From NCBI RefSeq assembly GCF_947496985.1, contig NZ_CANMEZ010000011.1:1-64000 (forward strand): a stretch of 64,000 bases of DNA. Reading direction: 5' to 3'. Shown in pieces: positions 9,562 through 55,009 of this stretch. The number at the start of each line of letters is the position of its first letter. The first letter of the stretch is position 1. A model generated the notes under the pieces. That model ran no database searches and had not been told where the DNA came from. It saw only the letters and a list, made by a program, of their open reading frames with translations. Position numbers and translations under genes: made by a program. The DNA comes from an uncultured Kordia sp. (GTDB taxonomy: Bacteria; Bacteroidota; Bacteroidia; Flavobacteriales; Flavobacteriaceae).

Positions 9562-9882
9562 AGCAATACGGTTTACTTAAAGATACAAATTAATTCCAGA
9601 AATTTAGATTTTTTTGGTATCTCCCGATAAAGCTTTACCCATTTTTAGATGATTTATGACACTCATTATTAAGTTATTTCCTATTATAATTATGTTAATT
9701 GCAATATATTTTTTGATGTAGTCTAAAGGTGAAATAAAAAATAAGCGCTTTATTTTCAAATTTTTAAACGGCATTTATAAATACTATACTGCTATTTATA
9801 AATCACGATTGTATCCTTTTTTAATCACAATTCTTTTTTGATAGCTTTAAACTCAGTTATTAACTATAAACTATATATTATT
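9562..9882. other. Divergent regulatory region between AraC regulator and precursor array
   Basis: These 321 bp have no convincing open frame. They contain the paired ATTTATAAAT boxes (9773-9782 and 9794-9803). Just before the precursor start they contain the leader TTAACTATAAACTATATAT, which recurs almost unchanged before the second precursor. Confidence 0.6.
9773..9803 (+). promoter_or_regulatory. Direct pair of palindromic boxes upstream of precursor 1
   Basis: ATTTATAAAT, itself a palindrome, occurs at 9773-9782 and 9794-9803, exactly 21 bp apart. It is followed by CACGATTGTAT. The same arrangement and flank occur upstream of precursor 3. A pair of sites on one DNA face is what an AraC-type dimer binds, so this is a candidate operator. 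That role is inference. Confidence 0.5.
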
Positions 9883-10095
9883 ATGAAAAAAAGAGACTTA
9901 AAAGGATTGAAATTAAATAAAAAATTAATCTCAAATCTTAACGAAGATCAAATTATTGGTGGTTTATTTACTGCTGGTTGTAGCGATGGATGTACACCCT
10001 TTCAAACCGCTTGGAATTGTACACGTACAGAATGTTCTGATGATTGCGGCGGCGGTATTTCTTTTATAGGAATTTGTGTTACCACAAAGAAATAA
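9883..10095 (+). CDS. GG-leader cysteine-rich RiPP precursor peptide 1 (class I lanthipeptide type)
   Basis: This 70-residue peptide has a lysine-rich leader with the Bacteroidota motif 'LNKKLISNLN', a double-glycine cleavage site at residues 26-27, and a core with six cysteines (33, 37, 46, 51, 55, 65) plus many Ser/Thr. An in-frame upstream ATG at 9838 exists. The start at 9883 is preferred because the two sister peptides begin at the same residue. The family is known for leader-guided modification and GG-peptidase export. No modifying enzyme lies nearby, so lanthionine formation is not proven. A terminator follows at 10133-10165. Confidence 0.82.
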   Translation: MKKRDLKGLKLNKKLISNLNEDQIIGGLFTAGCSDGCTPFQTAWNCTRTECSDDCGGGISFIGICVTTKK

Positions 10096-10132
10096 ATTAC
10101 ATTCCTTATTATTTTATATAACATAATTTACG

Positions 10133-10165
10133 AAAAAGAGTGATATTATAATGTCACTCTTTTTT
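10133..10165 (+). terminator. Terminator after precursor 1
   Basis: Stem AAAGAGTGA…TCACTCTTT (arms around 10135-10143 and 10154-10162) runs into a T tract. It shows that precursor 1 is probably a single-gene transcript. Confidence 0.75.
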
Positions 10166-10261
10166 ACTCATAAAAATGTCCCTCCTTAGAAAGAAAACAA
10201 TCATAATCTACTATTTTACAAATACTTAAAACAACTCACACTATCTATTCTTTTTCTTACA

Positions 10262-10271
10262 ATTCATAAAT
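10262..10271 (+). promoter_or_regulatory. Degenerate copy of the palindromic box upstream of precursor 2
   Basis: ATTCATAAAT differs at one position from the ATTTATAAAT box and is followed by ACCGATTACGATT, resembling the flank seen before precursors 1 and 3. The second box of the pair is not recognisable here. Confidence 0.3.
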
Positions 10272-10345
10272 ACCGATTACGATTCTTTTTATTTAACTCA
10301 ATCATTCTATAGCTTTAATATATTATTAACTATAAACTATATATC

Positions 10346-10579
10346 ATGAAAAAAAGAGATTTAAACGGGTTAAAATTAAACAAGAAGTCAATTTCTAATC
10401 TTAATCCAGGTTTAATAATTGGTGGTAAGTTTACTGCTGGTTGTAGTGATGGATGTACTCCTTTTCAAACTGCTTGGAACTGTACACGTACAGAGTGTTC
10501 TGATGATTGCGGTAACGGTGCTTCGTTCATAGGTACATGTATCACAACAAACAATGATTTACAGCAACCACAGGATTAA
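10346..10579 (+). CDS. GG-leader cysteine-rich RiPP precursor peptide 2
   Basis: This 77-residue paralogue of the neighbouring peptides has leader 'LNKKSISNLN', GG at residues 26-27 and six cysteines at the same positions (33, 37, 46, 51, 55, 65). Residues 29-56 are identical to those of precursors 1 and 3. It differs by a longer hydrophilic tail ending 'NNDLQQPQD'. Against precursor 1 the identical segment shows seven synonymous and no non-synonymous codon differences. It carries its own leader region and terminator. Confidence 0.82.
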   Translation: MKKRDLNGLKLNKKSISNLNPGLIIGGKFTAGCSDGCTPFQTAWNCTRTECSDDCGNGASFIGTCITTNNDLQQPQD

Positions 10580-10604
10580 TCTCCTCATAACTAACTCAAA
10601 AACG

Positions 10605-10631
10605 AAAGCGATACACATGTATCGCTTTTTT
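10605..10631 (+). terminator. Terminator after precursor 2
   Basis: A perfect 10-bp stem (AAAGCGATAC at 10605-10614, GTATCGCTTT at 10619-10628) with a 4-nt loop continues into Ts, 26 bp after the stop codon. Confidence 0.85.
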
Positions 10632-10660
10632 AGATTCTATCGATATTACTTCTAAACGTT

Positions 10661-10691
10661 ATTTATAAATACGATACCATTATTTGTAAAT
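10661..10691 (+). promoter_or_regulatory. Direct pair of palindromic boxes upstream of precursor 3
   Basis: ATTTATAAAT at 10661-10670 and ATTTGTAAAT at 10682-10691 are 21 bp apart, the same distance as before precursor 1. The same trailing CACGA follows. This repeated layout supports a common operator, although binding is untested. Confidence 0.5.
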
Positions 10692-10769
10692 CACGACTAT
10701 ATAGACTTTTTTCAAGTGTTGGTTTTCAATAGTTTTACTCTGTTTTATTAACCTAAACACAAATATATT

Positions 10770-10982
10770 ATGAAAAAAAAGAATTTAGATGGATTGAAGT
10801 TAAACAAGAAATTAATTTCTAACCTTAATGAAGATTTAATTGTAGGAGGTTTATTCACAGCTGGTTGTAGTGACGGATGTACACCTTTTCAAACTGCATG
10901 GAATTGTACACGTACAGAATGTTCTGATGATTGTGGTGGAGGAGTTTCTTATATGCCAATTTGCCATATAGATAAAAAATAG
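10770..10982 (+). CDS. GG-leader cysteine-rich RiPP precursor peptide 3
   Basis: This 70-residue third member has leader 'LNKKLISNLN', GG at 26-27, the invariant 29-56 core and Cys65 near the end, with a divergent C-terminus ('YMPICHIDKK'). Against precursor 1 the invariant segment differs by nine synonymous and no non-synonymous codons. The first residues (MKKKNLDG) deviate slightly from the others. It ends directly before a strong terminator. Confidence 0.82.
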   Translation: MKKKNLDGLKLNKKLISNLNEDLIVGGLFTAGCSDGCTPFQTAWNCTRTECSDDCGGGVSYMPICHIDKK

Positions 10983-10998: not shown

Positions 10999-11025
10999 AA
11001 GCGACATGAAAATGTCGCTTTTTTT
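10999..11025 (+). terminator. Terminator after precursor 3
   Basis: Stem AAGCGACAT (10999-11007) and ATGTCGCTT (11012-11020) with a 4-nt loop is followed by five Ts. The T tract overlaps the stop codon of the converging AbiH-family gene. Confidence 0.85.
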
Positions 11026-12103
11026 ATGCTTTCTTTTTTAATTGTACTTGCGGTGTTGGAATAGATTTTTCAAAAGGTACAATCTTAGTTCGCATACTTG
11101 CCTTGTCATTGAAATGACGCGATATTTCATAAACTGTGTTTGTATATCCTTTTATACCGTTATGATAGAATATTTTAATGGATTTGCAATTGTCGTGTTC
11201 AAAAACATGATTTAACAAGGTTCGGTCTGAAAGTCCGCAGGAATGTCCAAAGATATAAATTTCGTAACCTTCAATACTTCCTTCTGAAAAACGAATTAAA
11301 TCTTGATAGTTAGCTGTTTTTAGGTATTGAAAAGATTTGATGTGTTCAAAATAAGCATTGTTGTTTAACTCTTCTATTTCCTGATAATTCTTGTCCATTT
11401 CGTCCCCGAAACCAAAAATGATAGGATTTTCAACACTTTCCAGTTCTCCATGAATGTAATTCACCTCAGGATTCCCTAAATGATGTATGATTTCTGGCTG
11501 AATGAGATAATCTTCAATATTTGTTGTATAATTAAAATTTAGGAAAACTGTTTTTTCAGGAAAATCACTGTATTTTGACTTACCAAAAATTTCTTTCTTA
11601 TATCTAGTAGTCTTGGTTAAAAAAATGTTTAGAAACTCTTCGCTTGGCATGAAATTATATTTTTCTTCAACCTCTTTCTTTAAATAAGATTCTAAAATTG
11701 ATTTTAATGTTTCAAAGTCTTTGTTTAATTCTTCAATAGCGTTTTTATCATTTCCTTTGTAACATTCTTTCAAAAGTCGATAATATTCAGCTTCAATATC
11801 TATCCAATTGTTTTTATTAAAATCTCTAACTAAACAAGATAATAATTCACTTTTATACATATAAGGAACTATATCTGCTCTTAAATTAATATAACTAAAC
11901 AACTCTTCAATACTATCTATTTCATCAATAGACTCTTCCCATTTGTCATGAAAATAATTTGTCTTTATAACTGACATCAAACCAGAAGCATCGTGCTTTT
12001 TCTTAAAAACATCTTTTAAGTAATGCAACATAAAATCCTGATAACGCGTTGGCAAACCATGTGCTAAATCAAAACCATTTCCGAGAATTATAAGTCTGTT
12101 CAT
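11024..12103 (-). CDS. abiH: AbiH family abortive-infection protein
   Basis: This 359-residue protein has the diagnostic AbiH N-terminus 'LIILGNGFDLAHGLPTRY' and the later motifs 'FLNFNYTTNIEDYL' (about residue 190), 'YIHGELE' and 'IYIFGHSCGLSDRTLL'. AbiH proteins are phage-defence factors first known from lactococci. Their mechanism is not settled. It is a single gene, convergent with the peptide array and separated from the M28 gene upstream by a strong hairpin. This fits an independently acquired defence gene. No partner gene is visible. Confidence 0.88.
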   Translation of the reverse strand: MNRLIILGNGFDLAHGLPTRYQDFMLHYLKDVFKKKHDASGLMSVIKTNYFHDKWEESIDEIDSIEELFSYINLRADIVPYMYKSELLSCLVRDFNKNNWIDIEAEYYRLLKECYKGNDKNAIEELNKDFETLKSILESYLKKEVEEKYNFMPSEEFLNIFLTKTTRYKKEIFGKSKYSDFPEKTVFLNFNYTTNIEDYLIQPEIIHHLGNPEVNYIHGELESVENPIIFGFGDEMDKNYQEIEELNNNAYFEHIKSFQYLKTANYQDLIRFSEGSIEGYEIYIFGHSCGLSDRTLLNHVFEHDNCKSIKIFYHNGIKGYTNTVYEISRHFNDKASMRTKIVPFEKSIPTPQVQLKKKA

Positions 12104-44207: not shown

Positions 44208-45788
44208 ATGACTAATTATACATTATTGTTTTTGTATTTGAAAAAAATGAATATTCATTTAGATCAAAAAGAGTTTACTTTTCAGCTAGAATCACATCCC
44301 GATTTTCCATCTTTGCTAGCTGTTAGTGATACACTTCATTTGTTCCAAATTGATAATGCAGCTTTGCATGTAGATTCAAGTGAAATAACATCGCTGCCAA
44401 ACAATTTCATCACAAAACTCAAAGATACAAAAGAAGATTCTTTGATTTATGTAGAAACATATAATTCAAATCATTCATATACTGTATATCAAAATACTAA
44501 AAAGATTACTTTTTCAAAAGAAGCTTTTTTGAAAAAATGGAATGGTATTGTTTTTTTGGTTGAAGAAAATACAAAGCTTCAGAAAACATTACATCATTTT
44601 AAATTTACATATATTTTAGCAATTGTATGTTTTCTATCATTCTTATTACTTCTTAAACATTATTTTTCAACACTAGAATCACTTCTATTTTTAATATTTC
44701 CTTTTACTGGATTATTATTTTCTGTAATTGCATTAAAAGATGTTTTTAACCTAAAACATACAATTATAGATGCTTTTTGTTATAGTTCAAATTCACAACA
44801 ATGTACTTCTGTTGTTAATTCTGCACATTGGAAATTTTTAGAAAAAATAAATTTTAGCGATTTGAGTATTACTTTTTTTAGTTTTCAAATTGTACTCTTC
44901 TTCATTTTAGGGTTTACAGACAATATAACTACCTTTTTTTACTTGCAAAAAATCATACTGTTTGCTTCTCTTCCTGTTTTAACACTTTCTATATACTATC
45001 AAAAATTTATTATTAAAAAATGGTGTTCTGTATGTATTTCTATTAGTGTAATTATAATGGTTGAAATAGTTTTCGTTTTAGCATTTTATCCTACATATAG
45101 TATAGAAACTAGCATATCAGATTATTATTTAACTGCCTTTATAGCATTATCTATCTTACTCTCATGGAAATTTATAAAAAGTACATTAAGCACGATTAAT
45201 TATTTAAAAACTGCTGAACTCAAAGCCACACGATTTAAGAAAAATTATCCTCTTTTTAAAAACACCCTTATTTCCAATCCGATTACTGTATTACCTCAAA
45301 CCGCCTTAATTTTTGGGAACAGAGAAGCAAAATTCACATTAGATTTTATCACAAATCCTTATTGTGGTTTTTGTAAAGCTCCATATTTTATGCTGAAAGA
45401 CGTATTACAAAGGCATGAACGAGATATTCGCATTCGTTTTTTCTTCAATTTTGATTTAAAAAAGAATCCTTCAGAAGCTTCACAACTGGTACAACATTTA
45501 ATTTATATACACCAACAGTTTGGAAACCTAGCATTCTTTACTGCTTTAGAAAATTGGTACAAATATAGTGATCTTAAAAGCTGGTTACAGCAATATTCAT
45601 ACACCTATAATTCTTCCGAAATTGATCAAACAATCCATAATCACCGAGCAAACTTCATTAAACAGAAACTTACGTTTACCCCTTTTTTAGGAATAAATGG
45701 ATATCGATTTCCAGAGATGTATTCCATTATGGAACTCAATTATTTTATTGAAGAATTACTACATGATAATACTATACAATTAGCGTAA
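44208..45788 (+). CDS. C39-like / VKOR / thioredoxin fusion membrane protein
   Basis: This 526-residue protein has an N-terminal C39-peptidase-like domain (1-120, 'LESHPDFPSLLAVSDTL') that lacks the catalytic cysteine. A vitamin-K-epoxide-reductase-type helical bundle follows (135-330), with loop cysteines 191/199 and active CxxC 273-276 ('KKWCSVC'). The C-terminal thioredoxin-like domain has active site CGFC (386-389). The domains form a complete electron relay for making disulfides in exported proteins. In Bacteroidota such fusions accompany leader peptides. It is directly followed by a four-cysteine leader peptide. Confidence 0.88.
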   Translation: MTNYTLLFLYLKKMNIHLDQKEFTFQLESHPDFPSLLAVSDTLHLFQIDNAALHVDSSEITSLPNNFITKLKDTKEDSLIYVETYNSNHSYTVYQNTKKITFSKEAFLKKWNGIVFLVEENTKLQKTLHHFKFTYILAIVCFLSFLLLLKHYFSTLESLLFLIFPFTGLLFSVIALKDVFNLKHTIIDAFCYSSNSQQCTSVVNSAHWKFLEKINFSDLSITFFSFQIVLFFILGFTDNITTFFYLQKIILFASLPVLTLSIYYQKFIIKKWCSVCISISVIIMVEIVFVLAFYPTYSIETSISDYYLTAFIALSILLSWKFIKSTLSTINYLKTAELKATRFKKNYPLFKNTLISNPITVLPQTALIFGNREAKFTLDFITNPYCGFCKAPYFMLKDVLQRHERDIRIRFFFNFDLKKNPSEASQLVQHLIYIHQQFGNLAFFTALENWYKYSDLKSWLQQYSYTYNSSEIDQTIHNHRANFIKQKLTFTPFLGINGYRFPEMYSIMELNYFIEELLHDNTIQLA

Positions 45789-52127: not shown

Positions 52128-52376
52128 TTAACAGAAAGGATGTGTTTCACAACCTTCTGTAAATATTTCAAGACAACGAACACAAGCACTTATACCTGTT
52201 GGCTCTAAACAGCCAGGATTTCTGGACTCACATTCTTCTTTTGATTCACATCTTGTAAAATTGTCTGAATATTCACAAAGATTTGTTTCAAATCCTCCTT
52301 TAATAGATGTACTGTAATCTAATTTTGAAATTGTTTTTTTACTTAATGATAAGATTTTCATTTTTTGCTTTTTCAT
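52128..52376 (-). CDS. GG-leader cysteine-rich precursor peptide 4
   Basis: This 82-residue peptide has a leader 'LSLSKKTISKLD', GG at residues 27-28 and a core with eight cysteines (34, 43, 49, 56, 65, 68, 76, 82). The leader belongs to the same type as the three-gene array, but the core is unrelated and richer in Glu and Cys. An alternative start is Met6. It is divergent from an AraC-type membrane regulator, the same layout as the array. Confidence 0.72.
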   Translation of the reverse strand: MKKQKMKILSLSKKTISKLDYSTSIKGGFETNLCEYSDNFTRCESKEECESRNPGCLEPTGISACVRCLEIFTEGCETHPFC

Positions 52377-54626: not shown

Positions 54627-54806
54627 TTATTCTGCTGCTCTTGAAGGACAAATAAAGAACATTGTAAATGGGCAAGCGTCTCCTAAACAGGTTTGTGGCC
54701 AAGCTAATGGTGCATCATGTGCATCTTGCATTCCACCTTTAATATTTTCTAATTTAGATATTTGAGCTTTTTTAAATATTAGTTTTTTCAAAGTTTGTTT
54801 TTTCAT
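54627..54806 (-). CDS. Short GG-leader peptide 5 (59 residues)
   Basis: Translation from the ATG at 54806 gives a 59-residue peptide with leader 'LKKLIFKKAQISKLENIKGG' (GG at 24-25). The 34-residue tail has three cysteines (40, 45, 53) and ends 'FFICPSRAAE'. The next peptide has the same leader and the same C-x4-C-x7-C spacing, which supports both as real genes. It is a likely secreted RiPP or bacteriocin-like precursor; no modification enzyme is adjacent. Confidence 0.7.
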   Translation of the reverse strand: MKKQTLKKLIFKKAQISKLENIKGGMQDAHDAPLAWPQTCLGDACPFTMFFICPSRAAE

Positions 54807-54862: not shown

Positions 54863-55009
54863 TTACATTCTTGCTGGACAAATAAGAAACAATGTATTTG
54901 CACAGATAAGTCCGATACATGTTTGTGCATGCACTCCACCTTTTACGTTTTCTAATTTAGAAATTTGTGCTTTCTTTAATGCCAGTTTTTTTAATGTTTG
55001 TTTTTTCAT
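54863..55009 (-). CDS. Short GG-leader peptide 6 (48 residues)
   Basis: The 48-codon frame from the ATG at 55009 encodes leader 'LKKLALKKAQISKLENVKGG' with GG at 24-25 and a 23-residue core holding cysteines 31, 36 and 44 and the end 'FLICPARM'. Spacing of the cysteines equals that of peptide 5. The pair lies in tandem, 56 bp apart, and an ATTTATAAAT box lies 87 bp upstream of this start. Confidence 0.7.
   Translation of the reverse strand: MKKQTLKKLALKKAQISKLENVKGGVHAQTCIGLICANTLFLICPARM

Follow-up and report, generated by a model that had tools for sequence, protein, structure and literature searches.

A candidate class I lanthipeptide array with one invariant core, and its genome-wide leader family, in an uncultured Kordia sp.

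The DNA analysed here, which we call the window, is a stretch of 64,000 nucleotides from an uncultured Kordia sp. of the Flavobacteriaceae (NCBI RefSeq assembly GCF_947496985.1, contig NZ_CANMEZ010000011.1, positions 1 to 64,000 of the forward strand). An earlier note, made from the sequence alone, had described at 9,883 to 10,982 an array of three precursors of ribosomally synthesized and post-translationally modified peptides (RiPPs) with a Gly-Gly (GG) leader and the same 28-residue core. The three open reading frames (ORFs) and the identity of their residues 29-56 were borne out, and the features are as follows (aa, amino acids; evidence in brackets).

9883..10095, + strand: precursor 1, 70 aa, leader 1-27 ending in GG, core 28-70 (ORF, leader model, codon comparison)
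10346..10579, + strand: precursor 2, 77 aa (ORF, leader model, codon comparison)
10770..10982, + strand: precursor 3, 70 aa (ORF, leader model, codon comparison)
9967..10050, + strand: invariant core, residues 29-56 of copy 1 (codon comparison, alignment)
10430..10513, + strand: identical core in copy 2 (codon comparison)
10854..10937, + strand: identical core in copy 3 (codon comparison)

In the program-made ORF list copy 1 starts with a TTG at 9838, and the homologous ATG is at 9883.

The shared core and the age of its copies

When the three ORFs were aligned, residues 29-56 were the same in all of them. The codon changes in this block relative to peptide 1, said to be seven in peptide 2 and nine in peptide 3 and all synonymous, came out the same on recounting, and peptides 2 and 3 differ from each other by eight codons, again every one synonymous. 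The ratio of nonsynonymous to synonymous divergence (dN/dS) over the core, which the earlier note had proposed to compute, has a dN of 0 and a dS of 0.56, 0.85 and 0.69 for the pairs 1-2, 1-3 and 2-3, respectively. A random single-base change in the core has a probability of about 0.27 of being synonymous and seven consecutive ones would arise by chance with a probability of about 1e-4, and therefore the pattern is not due to chance. The leaders of the three copies have a dS from 1.4 to saturated and a dN of about 0.1, and the tails are the most diverged part with a dN of 0.3-0.7. Of the six cysteines that had been claimed only five lie in the identical block; the sixth, C65, is in the tail that had been taken as variable, and it is constant in 26 related peptides that were aligned (their loci, among the matches listed, belong to 7 of the genus's 11 genomes). 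A Pfam search of the three peptides gave weak, unrelated matches only and plasmid records searched with the array gave zero matches. The contig search with the array gave two loci, both of Kordia jejudonensis. Both pieces show synteny with parts of this genome, with 77-84% DNA identity over long blocks of the first, and on this ground the genome and the whole set of 11 genomes of its genus were assigned to Kordia. The array of one genus genome, G004, is identical to the Kordia jejudonensis array.

Three other species of the genus (G006, G008 and G009) have precursors of this core type adjoining the same M28 peptidase gene, and in two of them (G008 and G009) the same AraC-type gene is a further neighbour. 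The number of precursors of this core type at the M28 locus is one in G008, two in G009 and at least two in G006, where the M28 peptidase match starts 80 bases past the last precursor. Compared with the ortholog in G006, the window copies have 4 amino-acid changes in the core, and the proportion of synonymous differences (pS) is 0.49-0.55 in the core and 0.69-0.80 in the leader. Among the window copies there are 0 amino-acid changes in the core, and pS is 0.40-0.51 in the core and 0.63-0.81 in the leader. Thus, in both comparisons the leaders are near synonymous saturation and the core has the lower synonymous divergence. That the core pS is below the leader pS among the copies would also fit an array that is a relic, made of recent copies or homogenised by gene conversion, with no selected product. 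This we consider most improbable, as the same gap is seen against the G006 ortholog, the 7-9 core changes between copies include no non-synonymous one, and the core type lies beside the same peptidase gene in other species. Gene conversion as the cause of the core identity was tested against the G006 ortholog, and because the lower core pS is seen there too it is not required. The earlier view that these are old duplicates under selection and not fresh copies agrees with the synonymous-only differences and with the locus common to other species; from the divergence values the window duplicates look nearly as old as the species split from G006. The maintenance of the shared core by selection is supported by these comparisons, and gene conversion may contribute to it. 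An AbiH-family abortive-infection gene (window 11024-12103, - strand) lies between the array and the M28 peptidase gene and is absent at the syntenic G006 locus.

The leader family and the modifying enzymes

The description of an array of three is right as to the three adjacent genes but is an undercount, since the window has three more leader ORFs of the same family and the genome about 200. Those in the window, found with the leader model, are:

54863..55009, - strand: further leader ORF of the genome-wide family
54627..54806, - strand: further leader ORF of the genome-wide family
52128..52376, - strand: further leader ORF of the genome-wide family

With an iterated leader model, 202 distinct leader-bearing ORFs of 42-103 aa were found among 2073 small ORFs (30-160 aa) from the window and 96 stretches that had been picked for leader matches or candidate enzymes, together 0.65 Mb of the 5.48 Mb genome. 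The model was trained in four rounds on its own matches and hence its E-values are not independent; at the cut-off of 0.01, 29 weaker ORFs were left out, one of which is beside LanB (L018:14427). When the genome was searched with peptide 1 there were at least 146 matches at E<=10 (best 150 of 187 candidates scored), and when it was searched with the leader (best 150 of 345 candidates scored) nine places fell outside the 96 stretches. A separate leader search gave 17 places at E<=1e-3, five of them outside. These 14 further places outside the stretches are counted as matches and not as ORFs, and two matching places inside them, C6:77814 and L018:14427, are not among the 202. The search for more copies that the earlier note had suggested thus returned about 200 precursors that share the leader and have mostly different cores. 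A GG follows the leader in 196 of the 202 ORFs; the Cys content is 0.06% in residues 1-27 and 11.5% beyond them, and the number of Cys per core ranges from 0 to 11, odd and even alike. The ORFs form 111 groups on 17 contigs, of which 58 are single genes, and 48 of the 53 multi-gene groups have all their genes on one strand.

The leader consensus is MKKxxxxxLxLNKxxISxLxxxxxxGG and it contains the LxLxKx5L motif which, followed by GG, has been reported for Bacteroidetes class I LanAs (PMC7268733; this and the other papers are cited from their accessible text). At E<=1 the sole NCBIfam match of the three window peptides is NF038153, 'class I lanthipeptide' (lant_leader_L1a), which at E<=0.01 also matches 9 of 10 paralogues, the best with 4.4e-6. 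For a Nif11 leader the three window peptides gave no Pfam or NCBIfam match at E<=1. The motif, together with a NF038153 match just under the cut-off, upholds the earlier assignment to the GG-leader RiPP precursors.

As the earlier note had said of the neighbourhood, a profile search of the genome found no LanB and no LanC on the window's contig. Its statement that no C39 exporter is nearby holds in that none was counted as one; there is, however, a weak C39-like match at 44250, the only one on this contig, and it lies in a protein with a VKOR domain (44208-45788) which was not counted as an exporter. This protein (+ strand) has 526 aa with the weak C39-like stretch at its N-terminus, and may have a role in thiol chemistry. 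The proposal that remote enzymes act in trans, which was made to depend on modification or GG-export genes being somewhere in the genome, is supported at the gene level, as LanB, LanC and C39-ABC are all present elsewhere. The genome has one LanB, split into adjacent genes for LanB_N (751 aa, PF04738, 505.7 bits) and LanB_C (308 aa, PF14028, 244.1 bits), with a LanC beside them (PF05147, 155.9 bits). Among dehydratases of known structure, NisB and others can be aligned with LanB_N, and two of them, over their C-terminal part, with LanB_C. LanC aligns with LanC-type structures, and the alignment shows WCYG and CHG stretches that we take to be the zinc ligands. The order of this locus on contig 1 is S8 peptidase, secretion-system sorting-domain protein, ECF sigma factor, TPR protein, LanC, LanB_N, LanB_C, TPR/AraC regulator, precursor ORFs, HlyD and C39-ABC exporter, the last two being on the opposite strand, 3.1 and 4.4 kb beyond LanB_C.

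Altogether the genome has four LanC-like proteins, and two good and two weak C39 matches. A stand-alone C39 peptidase of 200 aa (L089:6061-6660, - strand) is beside ABC-3 type transporter genes. A second, class V-like enzyme set on contig 1 (L019:2873-6267) consists of an adjacent APH/LxmK-like kinase, HopA1-family protein and LanC, and on contig 15 (L111:4759-7974) a LanC and a nucleotidyltransferase are together with three leader ORFs of a distinct MKKKF.RSL type. On contig 5 (L077:4315-7108) a 626-aa protein with a partial LanC-like domain adjoins a DUF6734 gene. By Pfam none of the four LanC-like proteins (390-626 aa) has a LanM dehydratase domain, for which no aimed genome search was made. 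SPASM has a single match in the genome (C6:281139), on a contig other than that of the array; the closest of the 202 precursors is 22.7 kb away from it; radical SAM proteins without SPASM were not searched.

Whether the leader goes with LanB was examined in other genomes. Each of the 11 genomes of the genus has one LanB, and each has from 121 to at least 150 leader matches at E<=1. In the taxonomic family LanB is present in 25 of 299 genomes. Outside the genus, where the threshold was E<=1e-3, the leader was found in 11 of 23 genomes with LanB and in 0 of 20 without it (one-sided p 2e-4); the former comprise every LanB-bearing genome outside the genus, including G285, which has a short LanB fragment only, and the latter are the first 20 of 274 listed, three being less than 90% complete. 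The richest of these LanB-bearing genomes have 37, 15 and 10 leader copies, and in 9 of the 11 a leader is 1.4-2.5 kb from LanB. These results tie the leader to LanB. Alternatively, other enzymes could modify the array's subfamily: the class V-like kinase/HopA1/LanC set of contig 1, the contig 15 locus with LanC and nucleotidyltransferase, or a radical SAM enzyme. In favour of this, these LanC loci exist, precursors of the same leader family stand alongside the one on contig 15, and PMC11118758, in its accessible text, has radical-SAM-modified peptides as well as lanthipeptides among its Kordia counts and describes confusion between the two classes. This is nevertheless very unlikely in our judgement, because LanB, the sole enzyme tested across genera, tracks the leader, the only SPASM match is at least 22.7 kb from any of the 202 precursors, and the LxmK match of the kinase has 68.9 bits against a cut-off of 315.

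Predicted rings and the reading of the array

In the 26 related cores Cys 33, 37, 46, 51, 55 and 65 are constant, but as these cores were picked with the pattern GC.DGC the constancy of G32, C33, D35, G36 and C37 is by construction and to that extent counts against drawing on it. A close paralogue, L043:2821-3039, was left out of this set by the leader filter. Columns 30, 34, 42, 47 and 52 are Ser or Thr in all 26 and both residues occur at each of them. They sit 3-4 residues before a Cys, with the 47-51 spacing being 5 or 6 in three of the 26, and column 38 is Gly in 4. A Ser/Thr-Cys pairing at 60-65 is seen in 20 of the 26 and its spacing varies. From these columns we infer the thioether rings T30-C33, S34-C37, T42-C46, T47-C51 and S52-C55, and probably a sixth, less constant ring S60-C65 in the tail.

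The spacing was also tested in 186 of the 202 cores, after removal of 10 that are of the array's own kind and 6 that resemble them. Relative to Cys, these other cores have an enrichment of Ser/Thr at -3 to -6 (z 2.0, 3.5, 6.4 and 4.6) and a weak one at -9, a depletion at -1, -2, -7, +1 and +4, and flat values at +3 and +6, so that no enrichment is seen across +3 to +6. Each Cys can be assigned a Ser/Thr of its own upstream in 178 of the 185 Cys-bearing cores, compared to 33 when these cores are taken in reverse and to a mean of 129.6 and a maximum of 145 when the residues other than Cys are shuffled. The earlier note had left lanthionine or disulfide formation open. A column that is only Ser or Thr at a fixed distance before a Cys is what a thioether requires, and therefore lanthionine is preferred and disulfide is the less favoured part of that claim. 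Had the peptides been exported by the GG/C39 route without thioethers, with three disulfides as in small secreted Cys-rich bacteriocins, the even number of six constant Cys in the related cores would be accounted for, and the GG leader, the C39 exporter, the stand-alone C39 protein and the VKOR domain, which is of the disulfide-forming type, in a window protein with a weak C39-like stretch would all be in keeping with it. Left unexplained, however, would be the five strictly Ser/Thr columns at a near-fixed distance before Cys, the directional Ser/Thr bias in the other cores and the leader-LanB linkage in other genera, and a number of Cys that is odd as well as even across the 202 cores also speaks against it; we regard disulfides alone as unlikely.

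We are thus quite confident, on what can be read from the DNA, that the array consists of three genuine class I lanthipeptide genes which are under selection and would act in trans. The leader (MKK....LxLNKxxISxL......GG) would be recognised by the single split LanB_N/LanB_C encoded on another contig, which would glutamylate and then eliminate Ser/Thr; the dehydro residues so formed would receive Cys through the LanC encoded next to it. Cleavage behind the GG and export would fall to the C39-ABC/HlyD exporter at the LanB locus, and the product would consist of small local rings in a row. This enzyme set would also serve about 200 other precursors, which share the leader but differ in their cores, in the way that ProcM serves the prochlorosins. 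As for the role of the product, we can only guess that it is secreted and acts on nearby microbes or as a signal.

Several observations weigh against this. The window peptides score 18.4-20.3 bits with NF038153, 2-4 bits short of its curated cut-off of 22. Of the 23 genomes outside the genus that have LanB, 12 are without this leader type at E<=1e-3 and therefore LanB does not imply this leader. The three further LanC-like proteins, one in the class V-like trio and one beside leader ORFs, might take some of the precursors. In the 186 other cores the Ser/Thr enrichment has its peak not before Cys but at +2 after it (z 8.5), which can be explained, though without proof, as the start of the next ring. 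Finally, in 410 long proteins from the same stretches, counted without shuffles, the Ser/Thr fraction near Cys is 0.12-0.17 compared to 0.127 overall; it is slightly raised at -5 (0.153) and reaches its maximum at +1.

Upstream elements, the precursor library and known systems

The features around the three genes that bear on their transcription are the following:

10132..10165, + strand: hairpin and T run after copy 1, terminator-like (by folding; not listed by the pattern scan)
10604..10629, + strand: hairpin and T run after copy 2, terminator-like (by folding; the pattern scan lists the - strand only)
10999..11020, + strand: hairpin and T run after copy 3, terminator-like (by folding and pattern scan)
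9773..9803, + strand: two ATTTATAAAT palindromes upstream of copy 1, the first with a TTTATAAA core at -109
10661..10670, + strand: ATTTATAAAT palindrome upstream of copy 3, core at -108

There is no exact ATTTATAAAT palindrome upstream of copy 2, and a sigma-70 scan of the array gave fewer sites than shuffles and was uninformative. Because each gene has its own upstream region and its own terminator-like hairpin, each of the three appears to be a transcription unit of its own. Genome-wide, dyads centred on TTTATAAA are seen about 80-110 bases before precursor starts. TTTATAAA is present at -55 to -125 in 38 of 201 precursor upstreams (one of the 202, with less than 250 bases, was left out) and in 11 of 334 control genes (p 3e-9), a p-value that is optimistic, as are those of the other motifs, since the motifs were found on the set in which they were counted and the controls were not matched for intergenic position and base composition. 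By position, 38 are at -60 to -120, and the two adjoining stretches, which are equally long and have a similar A+T content, contain 4 and 1. The arms of the dyads covary, with 151 pairs against 94.6 in shuffled arms, and 0 of 2000 shuffles reach this number. TCCCGTA is found in 14 of the 201 precursor upstreams and 0 of the 334 controls. A second element, TA[CT]GG N2-5 CCCGTA, is about 60 bases before the start in 11 of 201 precursors and 0 of 334 controls, for example at L046:2438-2584, L077:12163-12300 and L106:3352-3498.

Taken together, we lean towards the view that Kordia species have a genome-wide class I lanthipeptide library, with 120 to more than 200 scattered and mostly separately regulated precursors, one leader and one split LanB, part of the genes being in regulatory groups set by positioned upstream dyads. 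Single genes would be further members of the known class I lanthipeptides, and the whole arrangement would be the class I counterpart of the prochlorosin system and the largest set of substrates of a single synthetase in the literature surveyed. Prochlorosins are class II, made by ProcM/SyncM, with up to 79 substrates for SyncM (PMC9872173), and have in common with the precursors here a conserved leader, diverse cores and many genes remote from one synthetase (PMC10783134). The differences are a class I split LanB with LanC, another leader type and more than twice 79 precursors.

The Bacteroidetes class I LanAs surveyed in PMC7268733 share with those described here, in its accessible text, the leader motif, the GG site, LanB with LanC and a C39 protease in the LanB locus, but that survey covered genes within seven of a LanC, whereas here most of the about 200 precursors are far from the single LanB. 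As of the same paper, pinensins were the only isolated Bacteroidetes lanthipeptides. Like the array as read here they are class I and from Bacteroidetes. Pinensin precursors are clustered with their enzymes, unlike most of those here. In Kordia algicida a LanABC cluster was listed in 2010, with the same enzyme pair in the same genus and a precursor alongside, and in its accessible text that report has the clustered precursor only (PMC3091789). A lanthipeptide cluster is also known in K. antarctica (PMC7477175), and richness in biosynthetic gene clusters has been described for Kordia (PMC10734526, PMC9248904, PMC13101523). A deep-learning survey named Kordia as RiPP-rich, gave as many as 176 RiPP precursors for one genome of Bacteroidota that it did not tie to Kordia, and noted LanC and nucleotidyltransferase near precursors in Kordia (PMC11118758); with this the numerical richness is shared, and its accessible text has neither a design with one LanB nor a linkage of the leader to LanB, a core subfamily or a predicted ring pattern. 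The leader, the LanB and the RiPP richness of Kordia are therefore already published. What was not found in the literature is the arrangement of about 200 precursors with one LanB; a search that reached few subscription papers and supplements turned up no account of so large a library with a single LanB.

If it is true that one LanB/LanC pair handles about 200 unrelated cores, this would be a natural test of substrate tolerance in class I and a ready tool for producing ring-bridged peptides. The array would be a clean entry point to it, as it has one unchanged core in three genes and a specific ring prediction. It also raises the question, as asked for prochlorosins, of what so many peptides of this kind are maintained for in a marine flavobacterium. 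One member of the family, at L057:2357-2581 (- strand), has the common leader, no Cys and Thr-rich repeats (THTFTHTFTDT...), and its product could possibly be dehydrated and free of rings.
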